Shown: positions 16,652 through 58,973 of the stretch, piece by piece
Layout: each line of letters starts with the position of its first letter
Position numbering within the stretch: the stretch's first letter is position 1
Notes under the pieces: model-generated
Databases searched by the model: none
What the model was told of the DNA's origin: nothing
The model's input: the letters and a program-made list of their open reading frames with translations, nothing else
Assembly (NCBI GenBank): GCA_921293015.1
Contig: OV121094.1
Coordinates: 36,392,054-36,456,053, forward strand
DNA: 64,000 nt
Source: Phorcus lineatus
Taxonomy: Eukaryota > Mollusca > Gastropoda > Trochida > Trochidae
Direction of reading: 5' to 3'
Translations under genes and position numbers: made by a program

Positions 16652-16672
16652 ATTCCAAAACCCGCATGTGAG

Positions 16673-19528: not shown

Positions 19529-19639
19529 TTATTTTAACTTTATATCAAGTAGTACAATCATAAAATTAATTTTGATATGCTTTTGTTTTGTTATCGTCTT
19601 CTATATCCATTTTTTGGGTGGCTCACATTTTACATATTT

Positions 19640-20620
19640 TCTTACCTTATTATCTCCGTTAACAGTCTTTCCATTGGAGTGACCATTAATGACAAAATAG
19701 TGAGTGTTCTGGCTTATGCTGACGACATCGTGATTCTTGCTGAGACTGAAGAAGAACTAAATATGTTGTTGGACTGTCTTCATATTTGGTGTAGAAATAA
19801 TAGATTAACCATCAACAACTCTAAATCCAAAAATTGTTCATTTTAGGGATGCTTCAGTGGAAAGAACAGAGTGTGAATTCAGATGTGGCAGTCAAATATT
19901 AGAAGTAGTGAATCATTATTGTTATTTGGGCCTGCTACTGACAGAACATTTAGATTATAATAGAATGGCAAAGGCAGCAGCAAATTCAGCTAGTAGAGCT
20001 CTGGGACTGTTGATATCAAATATAAGACTATAGGAGGTATATGCACTACAGAACCTACAGTAAACTCCACGACAGGATGGTTTTGTCTATCATGGAATAT
20101 GGAGCCGGTTTCTCGGGCACGTATAATACATCTTATGTTGATGCTTTACACAACCGAGCTCTGTGTTTCTTTCTCGGCCTAAGGAAATTTGCACCTAACC
20201 ATGCCGTCTGTGGAGTCATGGGATGGACCCCACCGATTGTTCGCCGCTGGGTTGCTGTAATGAGACCAGATACAAAGACAAGACTTATTCATCAAGAACG
20301 TCTCAACTACGTCATCCTCAAATGGAGACATCGCTGGGCGAAGCGTCGGTAAAACAATCGAAGCTTGAGAATCGTTCAGCAACTTGACAAGTTAGGATTA
20401 CGACATTTTGGACCCATGGAACATAAATACAGACCTAAGTACGTAGCTGCTACAATACAAGAGAAAATGATGGAAGAATATAATCTGGATTGGAGACGAC
20501 AAACACCTTCTTTCATCATTCTGATAAACAGAGAACCTACTCTCATCCGCGTGTCTGCCGTCCTTGACGTGCCCACCATAATCTATTCTGGCGATTTGAA
20601 ATGGTTCGAATTGTACTTGA
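19640..20620 (+). pseudogene. Family A LINE reverse transcriptase fragment
   Basis: The plus strand reads LSIGVTINDKIVSVLAYADD followed by IVILAETEEELN, then (frame change) EVVNHYCYLGLLLTEHLDYN and the following ASRALGLL. It then reads further ORF2 C-terminal sequence (RMVLSIMEYGAGFSGTY, NRALCFFLGLRKFAP). Each block aligns with LINE A at 14.55-13.9 kb (LSIGVDIDG, YLGLLLSEHLDFG, NRAMRFFLGFRKFAP). Only motif C and downstream remain, and the YADD pair is intact. Stops and frame changes mark it as a dead fragment. Confidence 0.85.
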
Positions 20621-21307
20621 TTAGTGTCCGGTTCGAATACATCTGACCATTGTTTATCATTTCAGACTATGAAGCAATCCTGTTTCGGTCTCTGTAAGGC
20701 TTGATGTACCACACATTTTACTTGAAGAAAATATGAAGCTATTTACTCGAGCATGATGTCAATCTATAACATGATCTAATCAGCAGGATCATTATTCCGT
20801 ACTGCGTGTTAGCAAACACGGTTGAAACAAATCAACGCGTCCTTAACACATGCTTGCAGATTTGATGAGTTTAAATGTTCATGACAATTTTTTTGACTTA
20901 CTTCCTCGAGTAAGTACACATCAAGATATCTCATTTCCATTATTATGTTTGAAACATTTGTATATCATTTGGTACAGCCTCTGCACTTTAAATGAACAGC
21001 AATTCATGCAGACCTTAACACTTAATAACAAATTGATATAGTCATGTCTACACGCTAAAAGGTTCCGTGATAATTCAGAGTAAACATTGCGATAATTCTC
21101 CACAAAATCTGGATCTAGGGTAAGATAGAATCGACTTCATTACCTCTTTTAGAGTGGCTTGTTTCCTATCAGATATATAAGCGACTTCAATCCCCTTCAT
21201 CGAACAGAGTACAGGCATGGGTAGAAATAGGTTTCGATAGTTTGTTATCGGTTTTGAACACTATAAAGATTTAATTTGATTGACCTGGTTCAGCCGACTC
21301 GGGTTCA
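20621..21307. other. No gene seen
   Basis: AT-rich sequence with no recognisable feature. Confidence 0.5.
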
Positions 21308-21545
21308 GAGAGGTGAGTTGGTGTTTAACGCCGCTTTCAAGATTATTTCACTTATATCGCGGCTGCCAGTATTATTGCAGGGAGAAAGCCCGCAACACCA
21401 TTGTGGTAATGCATTGCGGTGAAACCTGCGAGCATCGGCTGGAACTAGCAAACCATGGGTGGTACTGCGCTGATTTTCAGTGTAGCATTGCACCCAAACT
21501 TGACTGCGTGTAGAAAAGTTCTCTACTGCAGACAAAGTTGCCGAG
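21308..21545 (-). repeat. SINE, inverted orientation, head-truncated
   Basis: The reverse complement gives the SINE tail (ending AACTCACCTC), GCGATATAAGTGAAATA, CAATAATACTGGCAG, GTTTCACCGCAATGCAT and the body ATGCTACACTGAAAATCAG. It then gives TCTACACGCAG and CAACTTTGTCTGCAGTAGAG. The pol III box A is missing, so it is 5'-truncated near box B. It contains two short ORFs that are only SINE sequence. Confidence 0.85.
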
Positions 21546-27458: not shown

Positions 27459-27748
27459 GAGGTGAGTTGAGGGATAGCGTAGTGGTTACCGAAGTGGGTT
27501 TGGCAACTTTGTCTGCACTTGAGAACCTTTCTACACGCAGTACGTTTCGGTGCAATGCACACTACATGTCAGTGCGGTACCACCCTTTGGTCGCTAGCCC
27601 CAGCCGATACTAGCTGGTTTCACCGCAATGCATAGCCACAATGGTGTTGCGGTCTTTCTCCCTGCATTAAAACTAGTACTAGCAGCTGCGAAAAAGGTGA
27701 AATGCTCTTGAAAGCGGCATGAAGCCCACAATTACCTCACCTTACATG
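27459..27748 (+). mobile_element. SINE, long copy with altered head
   Basis: Starts GAGGTGAGTTGAGGGATAGC with a box-A-like GGATAGCGTAGTGGTTA but no box B: the segment between it and GGCAACTTTGTCTGCAC is shortened. The body (CTACACGCAGTACGTTTCGG, GGTTTCACCGCAATGCATAG) and the tail match the other copies. It probably cannot be transcribed by polymerase III. Confidence 0.8.
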
Positions 27749-28461: not shown

Positions 28462-28590
28462 GTCGCAGGTTTCATCGCAATGCATAGCCACAATTGGTGT
28501 TGCGGGTTTTCTCCCTGCAATAATACTAGCAGCCGCGATGTAAGTGAAATAGTCTTGAAAGGGCGTTAAACGCCCAACTCACCTCACCTC
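28462..28590 (+). repeat. SINE 3' fragment
   Basis: Begins at GCAGGTTTCATCGCAATGCA and carries the conserved tail through AACTCACCTCACCTC. It overlaps an 85-codon minus ORF that is only SINE sequence. Confidence 0.85.
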
Positions 28591-29931: not shown

Positions 29932-31038
29932 TCAGTATTTACGATGATTGTTGTGTGTACTGTGATCTGTAGGTTCATCGCGTCCTTGACCTCTGCCCTG
30001 ACGAGCATCACTCTGATTTGTCGACCGGGGGCCGTCACGTGACCTCTGTTGGTAAACATTACCACGTGGAGACCTGTCACTGTAAACACCGACTGACTGA
30101 GCGTCCTGGTATCGTCCTTTTTTATTGTTGTCATGTCCAAGACGGCGATGTTCACGTTGATCGTCCTGTAAGCGTTGTATCCGACCTCCAGACACTTTCA
30201 GCTGACCATTTCCTACCGTATCTACCAACATTTTCATAATCGATTCAAACAATCTTTGCTGGAAGGATTTATCACCCATTACGTAAACATTACTATAATT
30301 TCTACTGTCACGTAGTTTCTTCTTTTCAGTTAGAATCTGTCTCTTATCGTCAGTGGAGCGGCATTTAGCGATAATAACTCCCGGGTATCTAGAATGCCTG
30401 GATATCTTTCTCTCTGCCGAGTCGATCTGGATATCTCTCAATTTCAAACCCTCCCTGATTAAACTATTCACCTTGCTACATACATCTTCAGATCGCATTT
30501 CCGGTACATTTCGTACAACAATATTCAGGTGTGTATTGTCTGTCTTCACTGTATCGGCGTATGTGCGACTCCGTTTCAAATCAGCCACTTCTTTCTCAAC
30601 ATTCTCTATTGCATGAAACTTATAATCGCGAAGCTGTTCAACTCGATTGTTTATATCGTCGATGTTGTCAGCGAGATCTTTTCGCACATGCTTTATTTCG
30701 CTATCAACCAGTACCTTCACCTTTCCCATTAACCGTACTTCTAATTCATCAAAACGTTGATCGAAATGGGAAGAAAGTTTATCGATGGCTAACAAAATGT
30801 CAGACACAGTTTTCGTGCACCCGGGTGAACAGTTTTTGTTTATATCATTAGGAGGTCGCGCAATGTGCATATCACTGACATTCACACCTCTTAGCTTTTT
30901 GGTTTGCATATCCATCTCTTCATTATCACTAGTTAAGTGTCTCTTTCGCTCATCTGACGATCGGATCTCAATGTTGAGTCCTGGCGACCACATGACTGAG
31001 TCGACAAAATCTTTTGACGAATCTATATCCATTGTCAT
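29932..31038 (-). CDS. LINE ORF1 protein (coiled coil plus RNA-binding region), intact
   Basis: 368 codons from the first ATG (31038). The frame is open a little further upstream, but only with a non-ATG start. It is an ORF1-type nucleic-acid chaperone that would coat the LINE RNA in a ribonucleoprotein. Residues about 80-160 form a heptad-rich, charged helix (ISDILLAIDKLSSHFDQRF-like, VEQLRDYKFHAIENVEKEVA) suited to trimerisation. About 170-285 is an RRM-like unit (HLNIVVRNVPE ... YPGVIIAKCRSTDDKR ... NVYVMGDKSF). The last 90 residues are rich in Arg, Gly, Ser and His. No CCHC knuckle is seen. It sits directly upstream of a truncated endonuclease. Identification rests on position, the coiled coil and tail similarity to the 16.7-kb copy. 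It is remarkable for being uninterrupted in a defective element. Confidence 0.75.
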   Translation of the reverse strand: MTMDIDSSKDFVDSVMWSPGLNIEIRSSDERKRHLTSDNEEMDMQTKKLRGVNVSDMHIARPPNDINKNCSPGCTKTVSDILLAIDKLSSHFDQRFDELEVRLMGKVKVLVDSEIKHVRKDLADNIDDINNRVEQLRDYKFHAIENVEKEVADLKRSRTYADTVKTDNTHLNIVVRNVPEMRSEDVCSKVNSLIREGLKLRDIQIDSAERKISRHSRYPGVIIAKCRSTDDKRQILTEKKKLRDSRNYSNVYVMGDKSFQQRLFESIMKMLVDTVGNGQLKVSGGRIQRLQDDQREHRRLGHDNNKKGRYQDAQSVGVYSDRSPRGNVYQQRSRDGPRSTNQSDARQGRGQGRDEPTDHSTHNNHRKY

Positions 31039-31265
31039 CGGTGTAGAATAACAACAACGTCGGCTTAAAGGTTCATACACAGTTTACAAAACATATAAAC
31101 ACGTTCGATTTCTCACTTATTGCTGCCGATGTTGTCCCGATTTCCCGTAAACAAACTCTTTCAATTTGTCTGTTTAGAGAGAGAAAATGTCCACCTTGCC
31201 GCATTTACCTTCACCTCTGACCCTTTACAGCTATTTCTGCTTCATTAATCCGACGGTTCATCAAA

Positions 31266-31568: not shown

Positions 31569-32106
31569 ATACCCCCGCTTCAAACTATAGTCTGGCTTTC
31601 TTTGTTGGTTTTACCCTCAAAAAGCTCACTTAGGGATCATGGTTGATAAGTGTATTAAGTTTGTTGAAGCTAACATGTATAGTTTAGGAAATATGCTCAG
31701 GAAAAAGGACTTGGTCATAGATTCACTGTTTTAGTCATGTTTCCATGGAAACCGCAAAAAATAAAAATCATTTGTTGGTCAAACCCTCAAAAGACACATC
31801 AAGGGATCATGGTTGATAAGTGTATGAAGTTTGGTAAAGATATCATGTATAGTTATGAAGATATACTCCGTACAAAGGACTTTGTCATTGTTTAAGTCAT
31901 ATTTCCATGGAAAAAGCAAAAAATAAAAATCATTTGTTGGTCTACCCCTCAAAAGGCACATCTAGGGATCATGGTTGATAAGTGTATGACGTTTGGTGAA
32001 GCTAACATGTATAGTCTAGGAGATATGCTCCGGACAAAGATTTGTGACGGACGGACGGACAGAATGAATGCTATATACCCCCGCTTACGCTGTAAGGCGG
32101 GGGTAT
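31569..32106. mobile_element. Tandem-unit element ending in TATACCCCCGC hairpin
   Basis: Three direct copies of a roughly 165-bp unit start near 31601, 31771 and 31933. Each contains TTTGTTGGT..., AGGGATCATGGTTGATAAGT, GTATAGTYTAGGAR and (in two) TTTCCATGGAAA. The left end has ATACCCCCGCTT. The right end has a GACGGACGGACGGACAG run and then TATACCCCCGC...GCGGGGGTATA, a perfect 11-bp stem at 32075-32106. I recognise this terminal motif as typical of abundant invertebrate repeats but do not know a family name. No coding capacity. Confidence 0.7.
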
Positions 32107-35867: not shown

Positions 35868-36087
35868 CATCCTGCTTCATGAGCGTAATTGAATCCGCTC
35901 CTTCCTTTCAAAAGAGTAGCTTCAAACTCCTTGGATAACGACATTTCATTTGCTTAAACAATAACAGGTGAGCACAGCCACGAACACCAAACCGCGCCAG
36001 CCGTACGAGGGAATTGGCTCGAAAGAGATCAGGGTATATGGAAGGAGCTGGATCAGCGGATTCAATTACGCTGATGCAGCAGGATGA
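35868..36087. mobile_element. MITE-like element with CATCCTGCT termini
   Basis: The left end is CATCCTGCTTCATGAGCGTA then ATTGAATCCGCTCCTTCC. The right end is the reverse complement of CATCCTGCTGCATCAGCGTA then ATTGAATCCGCTGATC. About 220 bp with 35-40-bp inverted ends and no ORF. The interior CAATAACAGGTGAGCACAGCC also occurs at 47.59 kb. No clear target duplication was found. Confidence 0.6.
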
Positions 36088-37507: not shown

Positions 37508-37575
37508 GATACATCCTCCTACATCAGCGTTATTAAATCCGCTGATCGAGCTCCTTCTATATACCCTAATCTCCT
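37508..37575. repeat. CATCCTGCT-type terminus (left)
   Basis: CATCCTCCTACATCAGCGTT followed by ATTAAATCCGCTGATCGAGC and TCTATATACCCTAATCTCC matches, in the same 5'-3' sense, the reverse complement of the right end of the element at 36087. An opposite-facing terminus of the same family lies at 47560-47657. The two may therefore be the ends of one element into which the 8.76-kb transposon inserted. Confidence 0.5.
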
Positions 37576-38068
37576 TGTCAAGATCTGATCTAGTGAGTGT
37601 TTTCGGCGAGTGAACGGATCGCCTGAACGCATCCGACGGTGTGGAGAGAGCGTGTTCTGCGTGCGCGGGTACTGAAGCGTGACTGTCTTGGTGAGAGGGC
37701 AGGTACCTAGCTATTTTGGTAAGCTGCAGACAGGTACTCGGTGGTGTTTGGGCAGAGATGCGTGAGTGTATATTAATTTGCACTGAATATGTATTGTGTT
37801 AAAGAATAGGAATGAATTGGATATTTTAATGCATGTGAATTTTGAATGTTCAATGTTAGAATAAGCAATGTATTCTGTTGAGCAATATATTGAAGATGTG
37901 CTGTATAGAATTTAGTGTACAGTAGGGATATATGTATTTATATTGAAGGTTGTGTTTTATATGTGTGTAACAGGATGGTTAGAAATGGCAACTATTATTT
38001 TGTGTTCAAAATGGCATCGATAAAAATTACGGACTGTGGTTCGGATAAATAAATACAAGTGGTTTGTA
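37576..38068. other. No gene seen
   Basis: Non-coding sequence between the CATCCTGCT terminus and the transposon. A GATAAATAAATAC polyadenylation-like run lies near 38043. Confidence 0.4.
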
Positions 38069-38073
38069 TTGTA

Positions 38074-38471
38074 CAGGTTGGGGAAATCCTTAAATCGACG
38101 TATAATACGTCAATCGACGTATAATACGCCGATCTAGGTAGAAAACTATACTTCGATCGACGTATTTTGAACATTTTCGCCAGATGATTCGCGTACGCCG
38201 TTTTCCGAGTATTCGGCAGTTGCCTAATCAAACACGCCATTTATCACTTTCACGATTTTATGCAATTTGCAAGTTGCATTCCTCCACTTTTTTACTTTGA
38301 ATGCCTCAAACATTGACACGGTCTATTCTACTTGACTTCAAACGCGAAATAACAACACAAAACCAACTCTAAACTTTCTCAAACTTACACGAACCGCAGC
38401 ATCGACTTCTCATCGCCCTTCACTCTCGAAACCGGAAGAAGTACTAATCGATAAATTGGAGTATTTGAACG
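38074..38471 (+). repeat. Left terminal inverted repeat (398 bp)
   Basis: Pairs with 46453-46831. Carries the palindromic word CGACGTATAATACGTCG in nearly intact form twice (38097-38135), plus a GATCGACGTAT copy near 38155. Ends ...GTATTTGAACG. Confidence 0.92.
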
Positions 38472-38902
38472 ACATGCGATCAATTACTGTAGAAAGCAAA
38501 TAAAGTATGGAAGCCCATATTAATTGTTGCCATCACCATTATTACGAAATGACGTCATAAATGCGATTTCTATGTAAACATTAATAATTTACAAAATCGA
38601 CTTGTTTTCGAGGATTTATTTCCATGGATACTTATTCATAACAACTTAGTTACGAATGATTTGTATGGTTTAAAATAATATTTCTGTAATACAAGGTTTT
38701 TCGTTCGTTGTCATTGTTGAAAACATACTATATAAGAGGGATTTTGGCTCATTACCTGTTCCAGCAATATTTTTGCAAGATTTTCTCTATTCAGAGTAAA
38801 CTTTTGCACTAGTTGGTGGCCATATTTTGACTTTTTGTAAACTGTGTCCTTTTATTCTAATTTCAAACACATAATTTGTAGCCCGTTGCATCATATAAAC
38901 CC

Positions 38903-38907
38903 TTTAA
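38903..38907. repeat. TTTAA flank of nested element (left TSD)
   Basis: Same 5 bp as 40253-40257. Because the wider flanks (CCCTTTAA and TTTAAGGG) are also nearly inverted, the duplication is probable rather than certain. Confidence 0.65.
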
Positions 38908-40252
38908 CAGGTTCTGCACACCCCTCGATCGGGAACTAGTTCCCGTTCGGGAACCAACACCCCGATCGGGATAATAAAATCGTCTAAAATACGGTCAAAA
39001 GTGTTGTTTTTCTTTTATGCACTTTAATTTCACATTGGCGCATCACGACGAAGGAATCTACAGGTAAACAAACCTTTCGGCCAACTATCGGCAAAACGTC
39101 CGTGTCGAAACGATGCCAAACTTTGGTCGCTACCCCGTTAAAACACAGGGCCCCTTTCCTAACTTTTACACATTATAGCCTGAAAAAGCATGATTAAAGT
39201 CAATATTCACTCAAGTATTAGCAAACTTGCAAGTAAAAGCGTCCTAACTTTCTTTTCCACGCTAAAGTACCATCGAAACTCCTTCCGGTTTCCTGCAAAG
39301 GGGGGTAATGCACCCGATTAACGGTTCTTCGGCTCGAGGTACGGAACCGCATTTTGACAATAATTCGCGTTTTGTCATGCGATACATTTAATTCCAAATC
39401 CTTTGGTTTCATTTTTTTTTTAGAAATTTTCAAAATTGTTTATGTTAAGTTACGTGCTCCTGTGTGTTATAAGTCGTCAGGAATAAGAATTACTTAAGTA
39501 ATTACCAAAAAAATGGCTGAATTAATGTTTACTCAATCAATTAATTTAAATATTTCAATATATTCTTATTTATTTAAAACAATCACTGTTATTGTTAGTT
39601 TGAGGGAAGGAACACCTGAATTCCACATGAAGATTTTGTGTAATTTTATTAAACCTATTCAATTCATATAATTCATTGCATATAAACAGATTTAACAATA
39701 GAGTGATGTTTTCTCCATGTTGTGCTGAAAGTTTATGAGGTATTTCCTCTCGAAATTCTTATTTTGTCTTAAGAAATTTTTAATGGGTTAAAAAAAAGAT
39801 GTGGAGAATGCGCTTTCATAGTTTTTTCCTGTTTAGCGGCCTTGAGATGCATTACCCCCCTTTGCAGGAAACCGGAAGGAGTTTCGATGGTACTTTAGCG
39901 TGGAAAAGAAAGTTAGGACGCTTTTACTTGCAAGTTTGCTAATACTTGAGTGAATATTGACTTTAATCATGCTTTTTCAGGCTATAATGTGTAAAAGTTA
40001 GGAAAGGGACCCTGTGTTTTAACGGGGTAGCGACCAAAGTTTGGCATCGTTTCGACACGGACGTTTTGCCGATAGTTGGCCGAAAGGTTTGTTTACCTGT
40101 AGATTCCTTCGTCGTGATGCGCCAATGTGAAATTAAAGTGCATAAAAGAAAAACAACACTTTTGACCGTATTTTAGACGATTTTATTATCCCGATCGGGG
40201 TGTTGGTTTCCGAACGGGAACTAGTTCCCGATCGAGGGGTGTGCAGAACCTG
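38908..40252. mobile_element. Nested foldback element, two 405-bp arms, CAGGTTCTGC termini
   Basis: Arms 38908-39312 and 39848-40252 are equal in length (405 bp) and nearly identical. I count differences only at isolated bases, such as GGGAACCAAC versus GGAAACCAAC and GGCCCCTTT versus GGTCCCTTT. The ends start CAGGTTCTGCACACC and contain GATCGGGAACTAGTTCCCG (itself palindromic). The 535-bp centre has no ORF of note. It shares CAGGTT and a 5-bp AT-rich target duplication with the host transposon, so it may be mobilised by the same enzyme (inference). Small ORFs in the arms are mirror images and not genes. Confidence 0.9.
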
Positions 40253-40279
40253 TTTAAGGGAAATTGATGTAGGGCAAAT

Positions 40280-40790
40280 ATTTTAACGATTATAGCCACT
40301 GTTTGCGGATTTTCTTTACGACATATCTGCTCAACTTGGCTATATACATTGCCTATATACACACATACATACATAAACAACTACATACATGTGTTAGTTA
40401 ACTAAGGTAAGTCCTCACATTTACAACTGTTTGCGGGTTTGGTAAACAATACATTCCTGCTGCACTTGGCTTTCTTTATTTCATACATACAAACATATAT
40501 ACATACCTCCAAACACATATGAATTAAGGTAAGTTATTCACATTTACAACTGTTTGCGGGTTTAGTACACAATACATTTCTGCTGCACTTGGTTTTATAT
40601 TTTTCTTACATACAAACTTACATACATACATACATACATACATACTTGAATACTTCCAAACATATATATTCATCAATTAAGTTTGGTAAGTTCTTCACAT
40701 TTACAACTGTTTGCGGGTTTTGTACACAATACATTCCTGTCGATATTTATTTCATACATACACAACCATAGATACATACATGTTACATAA
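40280..40790 (+). repeat. Tandem repeat leader upstream of the 705-codon ORF
   Basis: Four diverged units share ACATTTACAACTGTTTGCGG followed by GTTT, then ACACAATACATTYCTG, a TGCACTTGG block and a CATACATA tract. Cores begin near 40293, 40417, 40540 and 40697. Units 2-4 are each preceded by a splice-donor-like RRGTAAGT (AAGGTAAGTC, AAGGTAAGTT, TTGGTAAGTT). A pure TACA/CATA microsatellite occupies 40615-40645. The array probably forms the 5' leader or promoter region of the downstream gene (inference). Confidence 0.8.
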
Positions 40791-40997
40791 CCTTAAATAG
40801 TAAACTTCTGCCTGTGATATCAGTCTCTCTGTACAAGGATACTGACATATTTGGTCACACGGACCATTTTAGTGATACATACATCGGTGCAATATACAAG
40901 TAGACCCATTCACTGTGATACCATTGTGATACACCTATTGTATTCATTTCTTTTGTACATAACTATTTCCCCTTAAGGCTGTATTCATTAAAGCATC

Positions 40998-43115
40998 ATG
41001 AATTGCGCATGTAAAAAGCACAAAGACATCACAAAAGACAAAGACTTTAAATTGCTTAAAATATCTTGGAACAAAATCAGGAAACCTGTGATAGATGTAA
41101 TGATAAAAAACGATTATATCACGAAATATTCCAATCACGTTTGCACGGTTTGCGCCGCATATGCTGAGAAGCATCTATTGAGTATAAGTTCCACGACTTT
41201 ATCAAGTGATGATGTTGTGAATGCCATAAAGTCTGGTACCTTCACACAGTCTCAGCTTGAGGACATTGCACAGGCTTTAGGACATTCCCAACAAGATTTG
41301 ATGTTTGAGGACGGAAAAACCGTCAGTAATTACTACAGAAATTGTAAATACCTTACTAATTACAAACCAAACTCATGGCTTCACAACAGAAATTCAATTT
41401 TGATAAAATTCTTACAAGCACTTACAGCAACCTCTGACCAAAACTCAAAAAAAACTTTACTGTTAGCTCATGGGGTTGAGCACATTTATGCTGCTAGAAA
41501 CTTGAATTTCATTGGGCCCTTGTCTTTCTCATGCAATTTACTAACATATCTGATGACAGGAAGTAAGATTGCATGTAACAATCTGTCATCTACCAGCCCA
41601 TGTGGTTCATACACAACCATCACAAATTGGATCAATGACCAAAGTCAGGAGGCAATTAACTGTCCAAAGGACAATGACGTGATTACCTTCTTTGACAACA
41701 ATCAGGTTCTGGCAAGGAATTGGCGTGTGCGGCTTGATGCAAAAGCAATGATCAGTGTTGTCACAACACTGGTCCATATGTTCACAGGTGGCAGTCAGCT
41801 TCAATCAAAGGATGAGTTTCATCCCCGTCACTGGTTGAAGTTTGACGTGAACAGCATCGCCCGCGTTATTCCCTTGTATACAGAACCTGTCTTGACACTG
41901 TTCAGAAGGTATCGACTTTGTGTCATTGATCTGATGCTTCGTGAGGTTGTCAATGACCATGTGGGTCAAGAAGACATGTTCGACCAGACATCACTACCAA
42001 GCACATCTGCTAGCGTCAGTGGTTACTCCGTCAAACGGGACGAAGATAGCTGTAAGATAAGGATTGTAAGATATGGGGACCACAGCAGGAATTACCGTAT
42101 TGTAGAAGCTGGCAATCTAATACAGCCAAGCCTGCTTGTTGGTGATCCCATTGACATCAATCCTTGTTCCTATGCAGCTATGAGGGTTGTACTCAACAAA
42201 ATCATGGTTGATGCCAGTGTAGGCTCTTCACGCCTTTGGACTATTGTCGGCTGTGATGGGCTTCCCTACAATCTGGCATCACGAGTCATTGAGTGCACCT
42301 TCAAGTGTCCCGTGTGTGACCATTGTGATATCGTTGGTCGCGATGGCTTCTTGACACACATGTCACAGGAGCACAAGAAGGTAGATGTACTTTGTGAAAA
42401 CAATCTGTCATTTTCTTCTGTCCTACTTATTCCAGGGCCAGGCCACATGGAAATAAACATGACCAAATCTGTTTTCAAGGTCATGTGGCAGGTCCTGATC
42501 AAAGATTTGGGTCTTATGCTTGGCTTGCGTTCAATGAAAGCCCAAGCTGCTTGTGAGAGAGCTGGGGATCACCACAAAGCATGGCAGATGATTGAAATTT
42601 TGCTTTGGGGCACAGGCCAGGAGTTGCTCGTGACTTATGTCAGACAATGCATGCAGCTTCGTAAGGAGCCTTCAGTTGGTGAATTCACTGGTTGGTTAGG
42701 CAGGGTTGTCAATCCAAATTATCTCTTCATCAGTGATATGGTGCTTACATACATCATGGCACTTCATTTGTATCGCTGTGCCATTCGTAGAGGTAACAAC
42801 AAGCTAGCAAACCAGTGTTTCTCCCGCTTCTCTGACATGTTCTTTATAACTAATATGACCCAGTACCAAGAACTCAGTGTCAGGGAACATGTAACCAGAC
42901 TGCAGGCTCCCACACCAGTTCAGGAGTTTTTAGGGGCAACAAACTCAATGTCAGTTTCGGGCAATGATTCCAGGGGTGAAGGCGGTGATTTCATTCTGGA
43001 AGCCAAGAATCGCCGCATTAAGATGTGGCTCCCTCCTGGAATGCCAAAGCCTATGCACTGGCAGCGAGTTTGTCGTAACCTTGACAACCTACCGCTACCA
43101 AAATGGTCATACTGA
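40998..43115 (+). CDS. 705-aa uncharacterised transposon protein, putative DDE-type transposase
   Basis: Intact single-exon ORF of 705 codons starting ATCATGAATTGC, far longer than any other in the window and alone on the plus strand of the transposon. Visible features: Cys/His clusters at the N-terminus (CAC at 3-5; HVCTVC at 47-52); ITFFDNNQ with Asp 233; WTIVGCDGLPY with Asp 420; a C-x2-C...H-x4-H unit (Cys 437, Cys 440, His 454, His 459); IPGPGHMEINM (480-488); and a C-terminal RGEGGDFILEAKNRRIK (659-675) followed by LPPGMP. From memory, DNxx / CDGLP / PGxxHxEMN / GGDxxxExxNRxxK is a recurring signature of uncharacterised invertebrate proteins and is reminiscent of DUF6589- or KDZ-like transposon proteins. 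Proposed triad: Asp 233, Asp 420, Glu 668. That assignment is inference. No intron signals interrupt it. Confidence 0.75.
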   Translation: MNCACKKHKDITKDKDFKLLKISWNKIRKPVIDVMIKNDYITKYSNHVCTVCAAYAEKHLLSISSTTLSSDDVVNAIKSGTFTQSQLEDIAQALGHSQQDLMFEDGKTVSNYYRNCKYLTNYKPNSWLHNRNSILIKFLQALTATSDQNSKKTLLLAHGVEHIYAARNLNFIGPLSFSCNLLTYLMTGSKIACNNLSSTSPCGSYTTITNWINDQSQEAINCPKDNDVITFFDNNQVLARNWRVRLDAKAMISVVTTLVHMFTGGSQLQSKDEFHPRHWLKFDVNSIARVIPLYTEPVLTLFRRYRLCVIDLMLREVVNDHVGQEDMFDQTSLPSTSASVSGYSVKRDEDSCKIRIVRYGDHSRNYRIVEAGNLIQPSLLVGDPIDINPCSYAAMRVVLNKIMVDASVGSSRLWTIVGCDGLPYNLASRVIECTFKCPVCDHCDIVGRDGFLTHMSQEHKKVDVLCENNLSFSSVLLIPGPGHMEINMTKSVFKVMWQVLIKDLGLMLGLRSMKAQAACERAGDHHKAWQMIEILLWGTGQELLVTYVRQCMQLRKEPSVGEFTGWLGRVVNPNYLFISDMVLTYIMALHLYRCAIRRGNNKLANQCFSRFSDMFFITNMTQYQELSVREHVTRLQAPTPVQEFLGATNSMSVSGNDSRGEGGDFILEAKNRRIKMWLPPGMPKPMHWQRVCRNLDNLPLPKWSY

Positions 43116-44757
43116 ACTTTGTGCAAATTTTGAATGACTGCCGCGCCAAAATACTAACCCAGCTAGAGGATTGAAGGAGCGGTTCTCAGCCATGACGTTT
43201 TTTTTATGCCTTTAGATATTGAACATAACCAGTTTGTATATAAAAATATTTGTATAAAAGCTAATTGTACATGAAATTGTATAAAGGAGACCTAATATAA
43301 TATATAATAAGGAATTTTTAGTAGTTAGTTACTTTTTAAAGAGTGAACAAATTCGATAAATGTGCAATATCACACTAAGATTTTTAATGACCGTTTAATG
43401 TGCAATATAAAAGATTTAATGAAATTTTTACAACCAAATATATCAACTATATCTGATCTTAAAAGACATTTTGGCAGTGAAAGTGATAGTGTGTTTCATG
43501 AACTTGTAAAGATGTAACTTGTAAAATAACAGCCAAAGTCCCTGAGTACAAGTCAAATCGGCTGATTCTAATTGCTTTGTATGTGTATCATATGCAATAA
43601 TTATAATCTCTTGTTATGAATGATAATCCACAAACTACAATACAAATGTTGCGAAGTCAATATGATCTACTTAAAACTGCAGAATATTATTTGTCTGCTC
43701 TGAACAAATTTCCTACATTAAGTTTGAGTCCCATCGTCCGGTTTTCGATCACAACATTAAAACTGCGACTTTTACCCGTGTATTGCCCTTATAATGAACT
43801 GATAAGCATTTATATGTGCGTTTTAGAAAGAAACAATAATTGTCGATAAGATAACATCATGTTAAAATTTTACAATGTTTTGAGTCCATCAACATGCACT
43901 GTGGGCCTTTAAAGATAAATGACTGCATGTGTGTTATAGTCTGGGTGTGCCGATTTAATGAATAACAATATTCAACTTAAAAATGAGATTAATGGATGTA
44001 TTAAATTGCATAAAGCTTAATTAGCTTTGTTTATTATTCCTTGAAATAAATCGGGAGTTAAGTATACAGGTCCAGTTGAACGGCAGTGACATCAAGTTAA
44101 CATAATTTCAGCGGTTACATCCCTTTGGAAACGAAAAGACGTACTATTTGCACATGCGTTCCTTTCTTAAGTTAAAGTATTTCATAAGTTAGAAAAGTAT
44201 TGATATTGCGTCTGATATAATTTATTTTAATTTGTTGTTAAAAATAAAATGTGTATAAAAATGATTGAACAAAGTAAATTATATTGTAACAGATGAAAAA
44301 TATTTATTAATCTGTTGAACATGCAATTTTAAAAATTGACACCATTATAAATAATTATAGTATTTAGATGATAAATTTCGTACATAGTAATTACTGCAAG
44401 TGTTTCATGGATTAACGATTAACATATGCGATGATATATAGATTACCTATATATATTACCTATATTACTTTGCATACTAACAATAATGCATTAGTATTCA
44501 GGTCAAGATGATGTATAGTATGTGGTTTATAAGAGTACCAACAGCAGTTACTTCCCTTGCATTTTGTGAAGTATTATTCCGATCCTTTGCATATCTTCAT
44601 TTTTAAGTTCCTAAGACTTAACACTTGTGCATGGCTTATGCAAATTTGAAGTAAAGTAGGATAATATGATATATTTAGTTTTTAAAAAAATAACAACGCT
44701 TAATCTGTATATAGAAGTACATATATATGTATATATTCGTATACACATAAATAATGT
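43116..44757. other. Non-coding 3' region of the transposon
   Basis: AT-rich, with polyadenylation-like AATAAGG and AATATAATA words after the ORF. No further exon was recognised on either strand. A 77-codon plus ORF (43616-43849) is not supported. Confidence 0.45.
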
Positions 44758-45277
44758 TTATTCGTGTTTACGACAGTGGTAGGGGACATTTTTGAAGTTT
44801 TTGGTCGTTTGTTTGGTAACCGTATACCCCGTACACTTAAAATGCGCGCAAAATTCACAATTGGTGGCATCACATCCAACCCATGGCCCTTTCTCAGCGT
44901 CCCCAGGTTCCCCGCTGGTGATGTGGCAGCGGGCTCGCTCGGAGTTGGAGTTGTCAGTGACTGCTTGGCCTATAAGTTTTAAAGATGGTTATATTAGGAA
45001 CATATTTTTCCGGAAACTGTTTCACTTACATTATGTAGACATAATGTTATGTAATGCATATCTATAAGTAAGGATATATATAAAAAAAATATAACATACT
45101 TCACATAGTCGTTTGCACAATAATTTTAATCCGATACTAGTATTTCGTCAATAGTATTGACTCATCAGGGATGAAACGATATGATCGTTAACATCGCATT
45201 ACAAGCGTTTTTATAACAAAATATACGTACAATGCACAAAGATATATTGTAAATTATGCTAATCAGGTGGCAACAAT

Positions 45278-45346
<69 letters not shown>

Positions 45347-45911
45347 CTTTCGCTTACCAAATAGAGTACTTAACATTATTACAAAACATACGAAATGTAA
45401 CTTACAAGAAGATTCTTGTACTGCGCCTTTATTAAAGTGGAACCATGCATAAAATTTTGTCCAGTGTCTGTTCTCACGTGGCAGTAGATCTCGGCACCAC
45501 ACCGAGTGCACATGCCGTCTATCTGTAGAATAACATATGCAAACATGTCAATATAGAGTTCAGTTGCATGTTTACCTGAAAAGTAATAAGTACTGACATT
45601 GTTGAAACTTCCAAAAGCTTTATAAAATATCATTTTATATCCAGAGGTGGATAATATTAATCAACAGAGCGACACAAAGTGAAAATGACATCCTATTACT
45701 AAAGTAATGTCATAATAAAAACATATGTAGTGTTATAAAATTAGAACCCGTTTTTGGAGTACGTCCTCGGTCAATATTGTTTGTTTCGGTACATTAAAAG
45801 ATATTGACACATGTAATATTTCGCTGATGAATAACATGATTATTACCACATACCTGTTTTATTAAGGTTTTTTCCGCTCACAAAGGCAATTAGCCCTTTG
45901 TCCGGGATCGC
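44758..45911 (-). CDS. Spliced minus-strand transposon gene, C-terminal exons with PHD-like zinc finger
   Basis: Three exon segments read in one frame: 45911-45854 (PDKGLIAFVSGKNLNKT; donor CAG|GTATGT), 45522-45406 (acceptor TTCTACAG; donor CTT|GTAAGT) and 44969-44758 (acceptor CTTATAG; stop TAA). Intron phases agree (phase 1 at both joins). The last exon encodes ARCHIT...GPWVGCDATNCEFCAHFKCTG and ends VPYHCRKHE. That is the spacing of a PHD finger, with W-V-G-C-D, C, A-H-x2-C and Y-H-C. PHD fingers read histone tails, so a chromatin-targeting accessory role is plausible (inference). The gene is convergent with the 705-codon ORF. The first segment has an in-frame stop just upstream, so its true 5' boundary is unresolved. 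Exon 45522-45406 also has an alternative open frame with CTRCGAEIYCHV. Confidence 0.55.
45090..45160. repeat. 71-bp dispersed repeat, copy 1 (in intron)
   Basis: ATAACATACTTCACATAGTC GTTTG...TTTTAATCCGATACTAGTA, TTTCGTCAATAGTATTGA. The same block, with few changes, is at 50439-50509. Both copies are preceded by TATA-rich runs. Confidence 0.85.
45280..45339. repeat. (TA)n microsatellite
   Basis: About 60 bp of pure TA within the intron of the minus-strand gene. The poly-Tyr/Ile ORFs here are artefacts of it. Confidence 0.95.
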
Positions 45912-46222
45912 TTATGTAGCCGCCGGTGTGGTGCCTTTTTTGTTTTGTTGAGGTGAGGGTACTCTTTCTTTTTACGACCCTCTTTCCCCTTTGGAACTCT
46001 ATTGGTATCTATAAATGTAATGAAAAGTATTGTATACGTAGTTATTCATTTCTGCTTAAAACATTGCTTGTAATTATTTAAATTTGTTACTTGGCAATTT
46101 ACCACATTTCTGATTTTGACCTTTATTTTCATTAAAAAAAAATTAGCAAAAGTAACTATGCTTACCTCAATTTCCTCTTTGTTTGACATCTTTGACAGTT
46201 CGGAAGCAATGAAAGATTCCAT
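45862..46222 (-). CDS. Candidate 5' exons of the minus-strand transposon gene
   Basis: Exon 46222-46166 starts ATG and reads MESFIASELSKMSNKEEIE, ending at a consensus donor GAG|GTAAGC. The next exon starts after TTTATAG at 46008. It reads in frame IPIEFQRGKRVVKRKSTLTS followed by a Lys/Arg-rich, nuclear-localisation-like stretch and ends ANCLCERKKP with a stop at 45862, overlapping an AATAAA. The same DNA in another frame supplies the PDKGLIAF segment of the PHD gene. So either this is a separate 67-aa basic protein, or a frameshift or missed exon separates it from the PHD exons. Both splice sites are good. Orientation and position favour one gene with the PHD exons. Confidence 0.45.
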
Positions 46223-46452
46223 GAAAGTTATATAGCATTAAAGGACCAATGGAAAGTATCGGTTAAGATGTCAAATGTTTTTGACCAAACGTATGACTTT
46301 TCGTCAAACTTGTTATCACAGTATCCATGGTTATTACTCTCTATACCATTAAAAAAACATAAGTTAAGAAATAACGCGACTCGAGGCAGATGGTGTCGTT
46401 TGGTGAACGGGCCTCCATACATTGCACTAGTTTTGGGTACTTTCTAAAAGAC

Positions 46453-46831
46453 CGTTCAAATACTCCAATTTATCGATTAGTACTTCTTCCGGTTTCGAGA
46501 GTGAAGGGCGATGAGAAGTCGATGCTGCGGTTCGTGTAAGTTTTAGAAAGTTTAGAGTTGGTTTTGTGTTGTTATTTCGCGTTTGAAGTCAAGTAGAATA
46601 GACCGTGTCAATGTTTGAGGCATTCAAAGTAAAAAAGTGGAGGAATGCAACTTGCAAATTGCATAAAATCGTGAAAGTGATAAATGGCGTGTTTGATTAG
46701 GCAACTGCCGAATACTCGGAAAACGGCGTACGCGAATCATCTGGCGAAAATGTTCAAAATACGTCGATCGAAGTATAGTTTTCTACCTAGATCGGCGTAT
46801 TATACGTCGATTTCAGGATTTCCCCAACCTG
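46453..46831 (-). repeat. Right terminal inverted repeat (379 bp)
   Basis: Reverse complement of 38074-38471 apart from one missing 19-bp CGACGTATAATACGTCAAT unit and about one base difference (TTCTAAAACTT versus TTCTCAAACTT). Followed by TTGTA. Confidence 0.92.
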
Positions 46832-46832
46832 T

Positions 46833-47431
46833 TGTAGCACCCGGGACATGGTGTAACAGAGGCCAAGTCAGGATGACCTTTTGTTCAACGACGGACTGTT
46901 GAATGTGATTCTCCGGGTGATGACAAGCTTTGACCAGTGGGCGAGCGTGGGGTCATCAGGAGATTAAGGTCAGAGTAGGGTTCACTGTGGACTGAGGAGT
47001 CGGACAGTGGAACTGCGGTGGACTGTGCCTGCACCATGGGAACTTAGGAACTGTGTTCTTACTGACAGAGGTCAGGGGTGGATGCTGAACACGGACACTG
47101 CTACCTCGTTGCCATAGTAACCATCAGTATCTATAAGCACTGTTATATCAGTTATCTTTATAACTGACCCGCGAACCTGTGTTTATATTAGTGTAAATGT
47201 CATTTACTGTGTTATAAGTAGATGGAAGGAATAATTATTGTATCTAGGTGAGGAAAGCGAAGCCTTGATATGCACGTGTGGGTGCAAGTGAGGAGCATGC
47301 GCACAAGAGGGAAATATTTATCAGTGTTTTGTATGGAATGAATGTGTGTGTGATAGTGTGTTTGTGTTGTATTTTGCACGGTGGGGTGTAAATAAACTTT
47401 TGAAACCCTTTTATGTGTTCTGATTTGTGAC
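46833..47431 (+). mobile_element. LTR-like sequence
   Basis: Starts TGTAGCACCCGGGACATGG and ends ...TTCTGATTTGTGACA. AATAAA lies near 47390 and a TATA-like CTATAAGC near 47130; it is GC-richer than its surroundings. TG...CA ends, a late polyadenylation signal and size (about 600 bp) suit a solo LTR. I find no matching 5-bp duplication: the left boundary is disturbed by the transposon, whose TTGTA target overlaps the first bases. Tentative. Confidence 0.4.
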
Positions 47432-47657: not shown

Positions 47658-50438
47658 CTATAATGAAAACAAATAAACTAGCAAAGTACCTATTGATGAA
47701 CAAATTCCTTCCCACTTAAAGATGTTTATGATCTATAGTTGTATTGCGTATCCATCCTTTTATAATGATAGTGATAGCTAAAATATCTTTGTTGATTAAA
47801 CGCGGGTTAGATAATGTAAGCCTCGACATGAAAGAGATATTAATGGATGGTGATCATCTTTAGTCACTATTACTGGGGGCAGGATATGGTTTTATCCTGT
47901 TATGGATACAACAACAGTGTGAATTTGTTAAGATTAATGAATGTTTGAATAGCTTCACCACATTTAAATTGAATACTTAACAATAGTCAGTTAATTATTA
48001 AGGGTCCAATTGGGTTGGTACAAAATAAGTAATAAGAGGCTTTTATATGGAAGTATTAATGATTTCGATATTGCATCTGATATCATTTTTCTAGCGTAAT
48101 CGTAATGCTTGGGTCTGGTTCTCAGAAATTGGGCGTTTTTTTTAATTTAAATTATGTTTCGGAACTATTAACAAGATGCCAATGCCAATTTCCTATCAGT
48201 ATTGTTCCCCTTCATGTAAAATGTTTTAATGATCTCTGTGGATGCAAAGGAGAGGTTCAACATGAAAGAAACGCTACACTGTCATTTGTTATTTCTTTGT
48301 TAATACAATATGGGATTATCAAAGAAACAAATCATTCTTAATTTAACATCTCACTGCATTTGTCTTTGGAAACTTGATCTGCTGTAGTAAGTCCTATTAA
48401 CATATAAGGAACATCAAACGTATTAACATATCTATCATTATCTATGCTATGCTTATTAATTTCTCTCTTTGATTTGTATCTGCAATCTTTTTGAAACAGT
48501 AAATAACGCTGGGTTTCGTCTGGCAGCATCAGCAGTGAACTACTGCAAAACTTCCCAAAGCATCAACTTGTCTCCGAACTCTGGTAGGTAATTAGAAAAA
48601 TATTTTGAAGGCAGGCAAAAGTATAAATTCAATTTTTTTAATATTAATTTTCGTGACGCAGCTTTAATGAGGCAAATCCGATGTAAAATAAAATCCCCCG
48701 AGTAACACGAATCATGCATACATTCACTTACAATGTATAGACTTTATTCTCATTATAAATATGCCTATTTTGATTTGAATAGAATTAGATATAATGAGAA
48801 GGTTGGTGGTAGTTTCATGCTGAGGGATACGGATGCAGTACACAGATGTCATCTGGCTCTCTTAAAAGCAATACAGTGGAAAATATGTATTGAAACGTTC
48901 CCGGACATACAACGTCGCAATAGAGGATATGTCTGGTACATGTACGAGCTGATTAACTTCACGTTTTACTCTTATCACTCTCAATCTCAGGGGCTTATAT
49001 GGGGCTTAGGTTAATGTACTTATAAGTAAAGATATCAGTAGGTTTATCGTAACTTTTCATGGGAGATTAGGTGTTATATGCCGAAACAAGCATCAAATGC
49101 AGGGTCAGCTGTTTAACATATTATACGCTTTAAAAAAAATGAGAGAAAATGTATGAACAGATAATTGTTGCATAAATCTTGACTTTGTGATTGATCAAAG
49201 TAAGTTTTTGTATAGAGTGAATAGAGGAACCTTTGCTTCATATGCAACAAGGAGAAATAAAAGCGTTAAAATAAATAATAATCCCAACTTTTTCCATACA
49301 AAAAAGTACATTGGCTGCGGGTAATTTCAGTTACAGGCCTCTTGTGTTGAAAACTGTAAGGTAACCATTACATCTAAACAACCAAATTCTATCAAATTAT
49401 AAGGGATATTTATTTTAGTGTTGATAATAAGATTGATAAGATGAGTGTTCTGCCATGACAAGAAGCATCAAAATTAATTTACACCATACTTCAGAAAGCG
49501 TTCCCAGTTAAGGTTAAAGGTTCATACTTTGTTAATCAATACACATCTTATCATGCATGTTATACATTTTAAATTTAAGACAAAGCTTTAACCTTGTTGC
49601 GCTTGGGGATGACACAATTACTGTATTACTTTTGTTTGGAGATACTTAAAACATTTTGGATAAGTATCTCAAGAATATACTTTCCTTTACCTCAGCAGTA
49701 GCCTCTTAATCCAGTACGATTACCATCTTGAATGACAAATGGTGTTGGGATGGAAATACTATCCCCATGGGGGAGTTGGTGATCAATGTATTTTGACGTT
49801 CCAACTCCTTAACAGAAACGAGGAGGAGCTAATTGCTAGGTAATACATTTGCGTACTTATTTTTGACCAGGCACTACACGACCCTGCTAAGTTTAATGTC
49901 TTTTTCTGTAAATGCTCCCGTATATATCCATTCATAAATATATAATTCTCAGAAGATATTCTGGTCAGGATATCAATTGATTTATAAAAAAGTGAGACAG
50001 TCTCAGAACTTTACGCATGCCCTAAGCAAAATAAACTATTTAAACGATAATCACATTTGAATTTTATTCAAGAATACCAGCGACCTAGCCATCACACACA
50101 TTCACGTTGTAATAGTTCGTGTTCTTATCTAATCGCTCATGGTCTGTGTCTACATGATGTAAAGTGATGTCTGATGATTTAATTAGAACGGCTAAAAGGG
50201 TCAAACAAATCTAGAGTATGGAATGATGTTTTAATTACCATAGACAGAAAGGGTTTCCAAATAGTTGTCAGCATTATTAAAATAATAGATAACATTGAAT
50301 TTGGAAAATCTTTATGATATTTAAATATTTAATCTCATCTACCGTCGTAGTTCAGTATATATAACCTTATAATGTATAAGGTATATATACATGTATATAC
50401 ATAAATGACATAAGTTAGCTTATATATATAAATATAAA
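47658..50438. other. No gene seen
   Basis: AT-rich non-coding stretch. The 78-, 63- and 93-codon ORFs at 48105, 48338 and 48733 have no recognisable motif or splice context. Confidence 0.45.
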
Positions 50439-50509
50439 TATAACATACTTCACATAGTCGTTTGTAAAACCATTTTAATCCGATACTAGTATTTCGTCAA
50501 TAGTATTGA
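50439..50509. repeat. 71-bp dispersed repeat, copy 2
   Basis: Second copy of the block at 45090-45160 (ATAACATACTTCACATAGTC ... TTTCGTCAATAGTATTGA), outside the transposon. Confidence 0.85.
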
Positions 50510-53214: not shown

Positions 53215-53345
53215 TGGTATTTGACAACAACGAGACCTCCCTTATCCAAGCTCCATGCAACGCTGTGCAAGCTTTACGGATAGCGTTGAGTTGAGTCCAT
53301 CGCAATGCACGGAGCTTGGGCCAGTGACCTTCACCTTTTGCCAAA
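53215..53345 (-). repeat. Inverted-pair repeat, copy 1
   Basis: The minus strand reads GGTGAAGGTCACTGGCCCAA GCTCCGTGCATTGCGATGGA, then CTATCCGTAAAGCTTGCACA GCGTTGCATGGAGCTTGGAT, matching 54945-55060 on the plus strand. No coding frame is shared convincingly. Confidence 0.8.
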
Positions 53346-54944
53346 GTTCATTTACAATAAGTTTTGAAGGGGCTACATGAGGTTTATCTCACGAAAGAAT
53401 ATGAAGAACTTTAATTCTGGGTTAGACTTTACTGGACACTAAATCTCTGCACAACTTACTGCATCGAAATGATTCACTATAAGAAAATCTCTTTAGATAT
53501 TAAGGCAGGGTTTCAAAAACTCACCAAATCGCAAAGACAAATAACAGAAGAATAAATATATCTATATTGTATCCCCATGTTACCTGTTTACGAGCGTCAC
53601 GTCTTTTCGAACCCCTAAAACACGAGCATGGAATTCTTTCAAATTGACATACAGAAAATAACCACCTAACGTAAAGTTAGGGGAAAGTTCCAAAATCTTT
53701 GTTAATGATTTTTTTCATTTGTGGTAGTCTTTCATTCGGTCGTTTAACCAATAAATATTATTCCGTTTAAGAAACTTTGATTTAAACTTATACCGTTTAA
53801 AGTCATGTTTTAAAGCTATGAACGTTCCAAACCAGACGTTTGAAAACAGTTTGAACTAAATTTTCACTGAAGAACATGTCAAAATCATGTGACATTTTTA
53901 ACTCTCCGCCCGATCGACGGGTCGTCTTATAAGCGAACGGTCTTTTTGGACCGGTCTTGCAGGCCGCCAAAGAACGTCGGGTCATTGATAGATTCATATA
54001 TTGCCAAATTTTAAGTCGAAAAGCTCTTGCAAATTTAGATATCATCAACAATTGAAATCAAGATACCTTTGTAATCATCAATTGCAAGATTAAAGAATTC
54101 GAAGTATTATTTGAAATACAAGATTACATTTCCATACATTTAACTAAGGGTCTACACTTTAGATTTCTCGCATCAAGTGGCACATCAACAAAAACACGAC
54201 TATTGTATTTTATGTGATAGTTAATTATTAACGATTTACGTTGGGTTTATCTAGAATTTTATCAAAAGGTGTGTTTAATTACAAATGTTACCAATTGCGT
54301 CCATCAATTACTCCGAATCAATTGCACAGCTGTGCGGCTTGTTAAAAACATAAGATTGTGGTTTTTTAAAAAAATCAAACTTCACATCAAACCATTATTC
54401 CTGTGATAAATCATAATTAGGTGATGGCATAAAATAATAGGCCTAATCATTTAAAATTAATTGCCGAGACGACACAAAGGTATGGTGCTGAAAGATTGTC
54501 TTCAAAGAAATCATGCTTTAACAAAGGCTTCGGAAACGCTCATAATCCATTTTCATAACAATTAGGCTACTAAAAATGTGCTTTGAAATAATGATACTTT
54601 TCAGTTTTCTAAAAATTTGTTATACTACGAAATTAATAAAACATTTTGAACTATTGAAATCGGTCCCCGAAAAGTTAATATGCTTTGACTAGAATACGTC
54701 ACAAAATCTGAGGGGCTCGAAAAAAGGTGACGTCTCAAAAATCGTGATCAAATGGACCTTTTCGAAGTTCGGAGATTTTCTTGCAATAAACACGGGTATA
54801 TTTTATAGAACTGCGCATTCAAGAAAAAAACCCAAATTTTGAAAATGGTCAGATAAGAATTAATTGCAAATGATATTTGTTCTTTTACAATTGTTGCTGT
54901 TTGCCTTGGGGTTCGAAAACACCGTACGCGAGGTTATAAGAACT
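53346..54944. other. No gene seen
   Basis: AT-rich spacer between the two inverted copies. An 82-codon minus ORF (53803-54051) is unsupported. Confidence 0.45.
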
Positions 54945-55060
54945 TTAATAGAAGGTGACGGTCACAGGCCCAAGCTCCGCTCATTGCGATGGACTCAACG
55001 CTATCCGGTAAGCTTGCACAGCGTTGCATGGAGCTTGGATCAGGGAGGTATCCTTGTTGT
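54945..55060 (+). repeat. Inverted-pair repeat, copy 2
   Basis: Plus-strand copy of the block at 53215-53345 (about 90% similar by eye). It directly abuts the LINE YADD fragment at 55.06 kb. Confidence 0.8.
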
Positions 55061-56884: not shown

Positions 56885-57701
56885 GCCATCTTGTTAAATT
56901 AAATGCTTATAGACAGTGGCTCGGCACATATGATAAAAAGGTATGGAGAAACGGGATCACCTTGTCTACATTTTCTCCCTAGATTGAAGTACTCATAAGA
57001 TATATTAGAGAAGAGTTATTACCAGCATTTATCATTGCACTAACAATGTTATTTTGAAAATTTTTGATCCATTTTCCGAATGAGATACCAAAATTGAAAG
57101 TTTCTAATGCCTTATCGATAAAGTCCCATTCAATGGTATCAAACGCTTTTTCGAAATCAACAGTAACTAACAAACCGGGTATTTTATTTACTTCGTAATG
57201 GTTCATAAGGTCGTATAGTAGTCTAGTATTTTCTGAAATGAATCGATTTTTGAGAAATCCTGTTTGAGTTTCACTAATGATAATTGGTAAAAAGTGTTTC
57301 ATTCTACTTGAAATTACGCCAGATGCTATCTTATAGTCAACATTAAGAAGGGTGATAGGGCGCCAGTTTTTTAGATATCGACGATCGCCGCTGTCTTTCG
57401 GTATACAGGTGATAATGCCTTGCCTTTGAAACGTAGATAATGTTTCGTGTTCGTACGCGTATCGAATTGATCTTATAAGAGGGAATTTAATATCCTTCCA
57501 AAATAAGTTATAGAATTCGACGGTAAATCCATCAGAGCCTGGACTTTTTTTGTTATCCATATGTTTTAATACCGCGGAGCATTCTTCCTGTGATATATTC
57601 CCTTCGCATGATTCTCTTTGGTCATTTGACAACTTAACATCTATGTCTGTAAAAGTGTTCAAATTATCTGTCCAGTTCGGATCGTGATTTGAAGAATACA
57701 A
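56885..57701 (-). pseudogene. L1/Tx1-like reverse transcriptase, N-terminal half
   Basis: Blocks in element order are MDNKKSPGSDGFTVEFYNLF, NWRPITLLNVDYKIASGVIS, ETQTGFLKNRFISENTR, motif A LLVTVDFEKAFDTIEWDF, and, after a +1 frame change near 57,000, motif B GRKCRQGDPVSPYLFIICAE. 'SPG.DG...EFY..FW' and 'KAFD.I.W.F' are characteristic of the L1/Tx1 group. Coding ends at AEPLSISI with AT-rich sequence. Motif C is missing here but a matching block is found at 55.1 kb. Confidence 0.88.
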
Positions 57702-58123
57702 TTTTTCATAAAATTTTGAAGATTCTTTTAAGATGTCTTCTTTAGATGTTAAGGATTCGTTTTAAGGTGTGATAATTTCGCACATGCTTTTGTTGACATA
57801 ATTTCTTTTTTCAAGATTCAAATAATATTCAGTGTTTTTTTCGCCGTCTTCTGACCATTTTGCCTTGCTTCTAAATATGATTCCTTTTATTTTCTCTGTT
57901 CTTAGATTTTCCAACAATTCTTTGCTAGATTCGAGCTTATTTTTTATCCTCATTGCTTAAGTCATACGAATGTGATTCTAAATTGCGGACAATTTCTTCT
58001 AGGAGTTTTTCTCTTTTTTTGTTTCCTTATTCTTATTAATAGAGTATGAAATTGTTTCACCTCTTATTTTCATCTTCAGTAATTCGAAAAAAGTTTGATC
58101 GTTTATATTGTATTTCACATCTT
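57702..58123 (-). pseudogene. L1-like ORF2 linker between endonuclease and reverse transcriptase
   Basis: Includes MRIKNKLESSKELLENLRTE, KIKGIIFRSKAKWSEDGEKN and TEYYLNLEKRNYVNKSM (57953-57762). 'R.KA.W.E.GEK.T.YF.NLEKR' is the well-known pre-RT block of L1-like ORF2. A stop and frame changes flank it. Confidence 0.85.
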
Positions 58124-58973
58124 CTAAGTCAGAAGGATCACCTGATACGTAGCATTCATTAACTGTTTGTTGAATGACATCTTTACTAATTTTACATACT
58201 GGGTATCATGTAGGAGTAAAGAGTTAAATTTCCAATAACCTGGTCCTCTTTCTACTGGTTTCATGGATAACTCCAATGATATGTAAGAGTGGTCAGATTT
58301 ATAACTTATTCCTATAGAACATTTTTTAACAATAGGTAATATATCTTCTGAGATAAGAAAGTAATCTAATCGGCTTTGTTTAATGGGCGATTTTTGTCGC
58401 CAAGTGAATTGGATTTTATCAGGATTGAGGAATCTCCAAGGATCGACGAGTTCTAATTTGTCTTTCATTTCTTTTATGGCATTATTAGCTTGTAAGTTGT
58501 TTTTATGTTTGTAATTGAAAGTGTCGAGATTATAATCTTGAACAACATTGCAATCTCCGGCAAGAATCGGGCTTCCTGGGAGTTGAACTAGTTGTAACAT
58601 AAGTTTTGTACAGAAATCAGGTGAGTCGGGATTTGGACCGTAGAGGTTGACTATAGACATACTCGTATCTTTTACATCAATGTCGAGGATAATAAAACGA
58701 CCGTTTTCATCGTTTAAAATTTCATGAACGTGATAGTCAAAATTGTTTTTGATCAAAATCATTACACCCGCACTGTTACTTGTATCATGTGAAAATATGC
58801 GCGAAATCCCATTCTGCCGCCCAGGTGTGTTCATTATTAATAGTGCTATGTGTTTCTTGTAGGAAAATAATTGAGGATTTTTTACTCTTAAGAAAATTAA
58901 ACAAGTCTCTTCTCTTCACTGTATCCGATTGGAGACCCCTAGCATTCTTAGAAATAATAGTTAAATCAGCCAT
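58124..58973 (-). pseudogene. L1-like AP endonuclease domain
   Basis: The start reads MADLTIISKNARGLQSDTVK with SSIIFLQETHS (catalytic Glu). The second frame, with a short overlap at about 58,800, covers SAGVMILIKNNFDYHVHEIL, GPNPDSPDF, PILAGDCNVVQD (Asp/Asn), TWRQKSPIKQSRLDYFLIS and YKSDHSYISLEL (catalytic Asp-His). One frameshift splits it; all catalytic blocks remain recognisable. In an active element it nicks AT-rich target DNA. Confidence 0.88.

Follow-up and report, generated by a model that had tools for sequence, protein, structure and literature searches.

We analysed a 64,000-nucleotide (nt) window of the genome of Phorcus lineatus (assembly GCA_921293015.1, contig OV121094.1, positions 36,392,054 to 36,456,053 of the forward strand; all positions below are those of the window). 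The window carries an element of 8,758 bp, at 38074 to 46831, bounded by long inverted arms. A first-pass annotation had described it as a complete 8.76-kb terminal inverted repeat (TIR) transposon with arms of 398 and 379 bp, a perfect TTGTA duplication, and one intact 705-codon open reading frame (ORF). The coordinates, together with the shuffles described below, bear this out. The left arm, which starts CAGGTTGGGGAAATCC, occupies 38074 to 38471 on the plus strand, and the right arm occupies 46453 to 46831 on the minus strand, so that the ends read CAGGTT..AACCTG. The outermost 17 bp of the two tips are identical. A single mismatch separates the arms over a 360-bp block (38112 to 38471 against 46453 to 46812), and the 19 bp by which the left arm exceeds the right come from an extra unit close to the left tip. 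TTGTA flanks the element on both sides (38069 to 38073 and 46832 to 46836); when lengths of 2 to 10 bp were compared, the duplication was exact at 5 bp only. The ORF, encoding a predicted DDE transposase of 705 amino acids (aa), lies at 40998 to 43115 on the plus strand and is intact. The near-identical arms suggest that the element moved recently, though arms can be homogenised. With its ORF intact and its arms separated by 1 base in 360 bp, the element may have kept its activity.

A second element, overlooked by the first-pass annotation, is nested in the first, with the left arm on one side of it and the ORF on the other. It spans 1,345 bp (38908 to 40252), has ends CAGGTTCTGCACACCCC, and is flanked by an exact 5-bp duplication, TTTAA, at 38903 to 38907 and 40253 to 40257. 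Its arms (38908 to 39312 and 39848 to 40252) are each 405 bp long and differ at 2 positions. No ORF of at least 80 aa was found inside it, and we therefore read it as non-autonomous. On either side of the nested element stand CCCTTTAA (38900 to 38907) and TTTAAGGG (40253 to 40260), which suggests a near-palindromic landing target. The ends of the two elements are alike over their first six bases, CAGGTT, and the arms are dissimilar further in, which makes the nested element probably another family of the same lineage. Two elements in the window combine terminal inverted repeats with flanking duplications, as TIR transposons in general do. Two independent insertions that share their first six bases and their duplication length are the main evidence within the window for one lineage. 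The nested element would then be a non-autonomous relative, mobilised by an enzyme of the outer element's kind.

We compared these end pairs with a null model of 60 dinucleotide-preserving shuffles, in which pairs were required to have CA..TG ends and a 5-bp duplication and to span no more than 12 kb. Pairs whose ends matched at 14 of 14 positions occurred twice in the window, as the outer and the nested element, and in none of the shuffles, and we rejected chance or artefact as the source of the two pairs. Looser pairs, with at least 12 of 14 positions matching, were at chance level (37 across the 60 shuffles). A third observed pair, 10240 to 21411 with a CATTG duplication, is of this kind (12/14) and lies within a dispersed repeat; we regard it as noise. 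Likewise, we set aside a match to the tip with 3 mismatches at 56306, since each shuffle yielded a mean of 0.25 such matches.

Protein searches with the 705-aa ORF gave 7, 6 and 17 matches, amounting to 19 different proteins, of which 7 came from Haliotis rufescens, Saccostrea echinata, S. cucullata and Argopecten irradians. The H. rufescens protein LOC124127059 is 48% identical across 64% of the query, and the S. cucullata protein LOC134275243 is 37% identical across 99%. A tree built on the shared region places the Haliotis protein closest to the window protein (support, 97/96). Precomputed annotation places DUF6589 (PF20231) on 3 of the 19 relatives. Among the rows of a 20-row alignment, four matched DUF6589 at an E value of 0.1 or below, the best at 2.8e-6 (26.8 bits, where the cut-off is 27). 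The kinship with DUF6589 and with the two mollusc proteins is thus one of sequence, although the window protein itself falls below the Pfam gathering cut-off and had no DUF6589 match in the Pfam scan. That scan gave no match above the cut-off and reached no family of a named transposon superfamily. An NCBIfam scan had nothing to show, and a sequence search of PDB returned one weak match to a designed protein, with none in later searches. In viral contigs, the single-protein query gave no pattern match and the alignment query gave 59, none of them confirmed; a search of genome contigs gave 41 pattern matches, again with none confirmed.

The alignment points to a conserved core. D227 and D233 never vary, all 16 rows that extend to D420 retain it, and H483 and E485 are kept in 15 of 15. 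Further on, E661 and E668, within the motif EGGDFxLE, are kept in 6/6 rows; three rows (P0006, P0007 and P0014) finish in other letters ahead of this motif. The protein also has an N-terminal CxCxxH...CxxC, with CxCxxH found near the N terminus in 12 of 13 rows, and a C2H2 finger at residues 437 to 459, between D420 and H483, that is carried by 4 of the 15 rows spanning the site.

We compared a predicted model of the protein with known structures by VIA-align, in which folds missing from its list exclude nothing. The best structural matches of the predicted fold were DDE transposases with a helical insertion domain; an earlier, shallower model had given no fold match, and no match at an E value of 0.001 or below was found in a viral fold library. 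The predicted fold thus marks the protein as a predicted DDE transposase, like known transposon enzymes in folded shape and not in sequence. As the third catalytic residue, E485 had been the first choice on grounds of conservation and was set aside in favour of E661 or E668. The aligned ranges of the P element, Hermes and RAG1 enzymes end opposite model residues 672 to 674, only a few residues beyond what we take to be their catalytic glutamates (E531, E572 and E962, respectively), and for this reason E661 or E668 is preferred. The model is consistent with an RNase-H-type active site formed by D233, D420 and one of these two glutamates.

Downstream of the ORF and on the opposite strand lies a candidate convergent gene. 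Its putative exons 1 to 3, at 46166 to 46222, 45882 to 46008, and 45406 to 45522 (the last in a provisional frame), and its putative last exon, at 44758 to 44969, which contains the stop, join into an open frame of 170 aa; the GT..AG introns between them measure 157, 359 and 436 bp. The convergent spliced gene of the first-pass annotation thus has a plausible open frame, but its splicing is a model: 192 of the 7,392 splice combinations tested stayed open, and an alternative frame of exon 3 that reads CTRCG was likewise open with other splice sites. The last exon contains a PHD-like finger, with E values of 0.0021 (exon) and 0.0097 (spliced model) that both fall short of the Pfam cut-off, and the domain scan found no kelch-type match in the gene. 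The product is probably an accessory protein. Between putative exons 3 and 4, the stretch 45064 to 45160 recurs at 50410 to 50509 (100 nt, 89% identity) and is either a short dispersed repeat or what is left of another copy. On the plus strand at 40298 to 40799, past the nested element and upstream of the ORF, stand imperfect direct repeats of roughly 123 to 130 bp, which are possible binding sites or promoter parts.

Taken together, these features make it quite likely that the outer element is an autonomous DDE transposon of the cut-and-paste kind, from a lineage not placed in a named superfamily; it is complete and possibly still active. The 705-aa protein would bind the long arms, perhaps by means of the Cys/His region near its N terminus, would pair the ends and, with its RNase-H-type site (D233, D420 and E661 or E668), would cut at the CAGG tips. 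It would join the element to a target whose two strands are cut with a 5-bp offset, and repair of the gaps would produce the 5-bp duplication. Related enzymes may mobilise short derivatives, the nested element among them; the PHD-like protein may assist, perhaps at chromatin.

The first-pass annotation had called the superfamily unassigned and perhaps undescribed. The DDE-like fold, together with the lack of any superfamily match in Pfam, upholds the first part, whereas "undescribed" stays a possibility. The enzyme's likeness in fold and the nested element suggest a poorly described lineage with relatives in molluscs, and there is a fair chance that it is an undescribed superfamily. A more specific proposal, which we make tentatively, is that DUF6589-related DDE transposases form a superfamily of their own, characterised by 5-bp duplications, ends of the form CAGGTT..AACCTG, arms near 400 bp in length, non-autonomous derivatives and a convergent PHD-finger gene, and that they reached a RAG-like, tail-to-tail layout of two genes independently, in which the partner might read chromatin and so direct insertion. 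Somewhat more probable than this proposal, though still short of an even chance, is that Repbase or Dfam already lists the lineage, unpublished or under a known superfamily name (e.g., hAT5, Academ or EnSpm), and that the element is a mere new copy. Repbase holds many mollusc families absent from open-access papers, and our literature coverage was limited to PubMed Central (PMC) papers under open licences. Among those papers we found no description of the lineage: no matching transposon with 5-bp duplications, no DUF6589 paper and a single, unrelated PF20231 paper, a result that counts against prior cataloguing and weighs little.

The 5-bp duplication, which the first-pass annotation held against Tc1, hAT/P, piggyBac/Kolobok, CACTA and MULE elements, is not unique to this element. 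Our comparisons of ends and duplications draw on PMC12730594, PMC10045372, PMC10799480, PMC9435367, PMC8355894 and PMC8289069. In these papers, 5-bp duplications are given for Transib and RAG-like elements, for hAT5 (PMC12730594), and for some Ginger2 elements. The 705-aa protein has no hAT match in Pfam, which separates it from hAT5. Academ elements, found in animals and fungi, are likewise TIR DNA transposons and, according to PMC10045372, have duplications of 9 to 10 bp (AcademH) or 3 to 4 bp (AcademX); they are set apart here by duplication length.

Membership of the 705-aa family in the CMCT clade (Transib, EnSpm and kin) is a weaker candidate, and we consider it improbable. This clade is characterised, according to PMC12730594, by CA..TG ends, duplications of 2 to 5 bp and a conserved C2/H2 motif. 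The CAGG..CCTG ends and the 5-bp duplication agree with that description, and the window protein has a C2/H2 motif, yet the presence of the finger in only 4 of 15 family rows makes it optional in the family. In addition, the P element, Hermes and ISCth4 all scored above HzTransib in the fold comparison, and no sequence match to RAG1 or Transib was found in Pfam or PDB. The likeness to Transib and ProtoRAG consists of the 5-bp duplication, the convergent partner gene and the PHD-like finger at the partner's end. As published, ProtoRAG has two tail-to-tail genes, 5-bp duplications and CAC tips, and a PHD finger ends the RAG2 of vertebrates and sea urchin, whereas the RAG2-like protein of lancelet ProtoRAG is without it. 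Both elements here begin with CAGG and not with the CAC of RAG-like elements, and neither a RAG1 match in the transposase nor a kelch-type match in its partner was found by Pfam. Our claim extends to a RAG-like layout, not to membership.

The P element transposase was 9% identical in the fold alignment, and the protein had no match to THAP or to any other P-family domain in Pfam at an E value of 1 or below. P elements have a THAP DNA-binding domain and duplications of 7 to 8 bp (8 bp in the first-pass annotation), a length at which the duplication here is not exact. Kolobok and piggyBac elements duplicate TTAA, whereas the outer element duplicated TTGTA. That the nested element is nevertheless an unrelated insertion of the Kolobok or piggyBac type, with a coincidental CAGG tip, is unlikely: TTTAA includes TTAA and the nested arms are unlike the outer ones past six bases, but a TTAA reading leaves the two ends different by one base, while the 5-bp reading is symmetrical and starts exactly as the outer element does, and a 15-mer is common to the nested and outer arms at 14 of 15 positions in opposite orientation (weak evidence, equalled in 4 of 300 mononucleotide shuffles).

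Elsewhere in the window, two broken non-long-terminal-repeat retrotransposons (12798 to 16672 and 56979 to 58915, minus strand) have their reverse transcriptase and endonuclease matches split among separate open pieces, the endonuclease match of the second being just below the Pfam cut-off. A 383-codon open frame at 29932 to 31083 on the minus strand had no Pfam match at an E value of 0.01 or below. Copies of a dispersed repeat, 75 to 89% alike and in both orientations, lie at 10116 to 10323, 21310 to 21556, 27496 to 27738, and 28495 to 28585. Two inverted-repeat pairs (53224 to 53354 with 54935 to 55060, and 36022 to 36086 with 37512 to 37576) are 1.5 to 1.8 kb across and showed no clear duplication at the edges, and a tandem repeat with a 162-bp unit (2.6 copies, 82% matches) occupies 31601 to 32039. 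Scanning the window for Rfam families and for tRNAs had nothing to show.

Our analysis ties one DUF6589-related protein to defined ends and duplications; the link of the protein family to CAGG ends comes from this one element. For proteins related to a Pfam family whose function is unknown, it puts forward DDE transposition with 5-bp staggered insertion as a mechanism. If other copies agree, mollusc repeat annotation would gain a lineage, and the comparison with RAG and Transib, based on 5-bp duplications and a convergent partner, would become testable.
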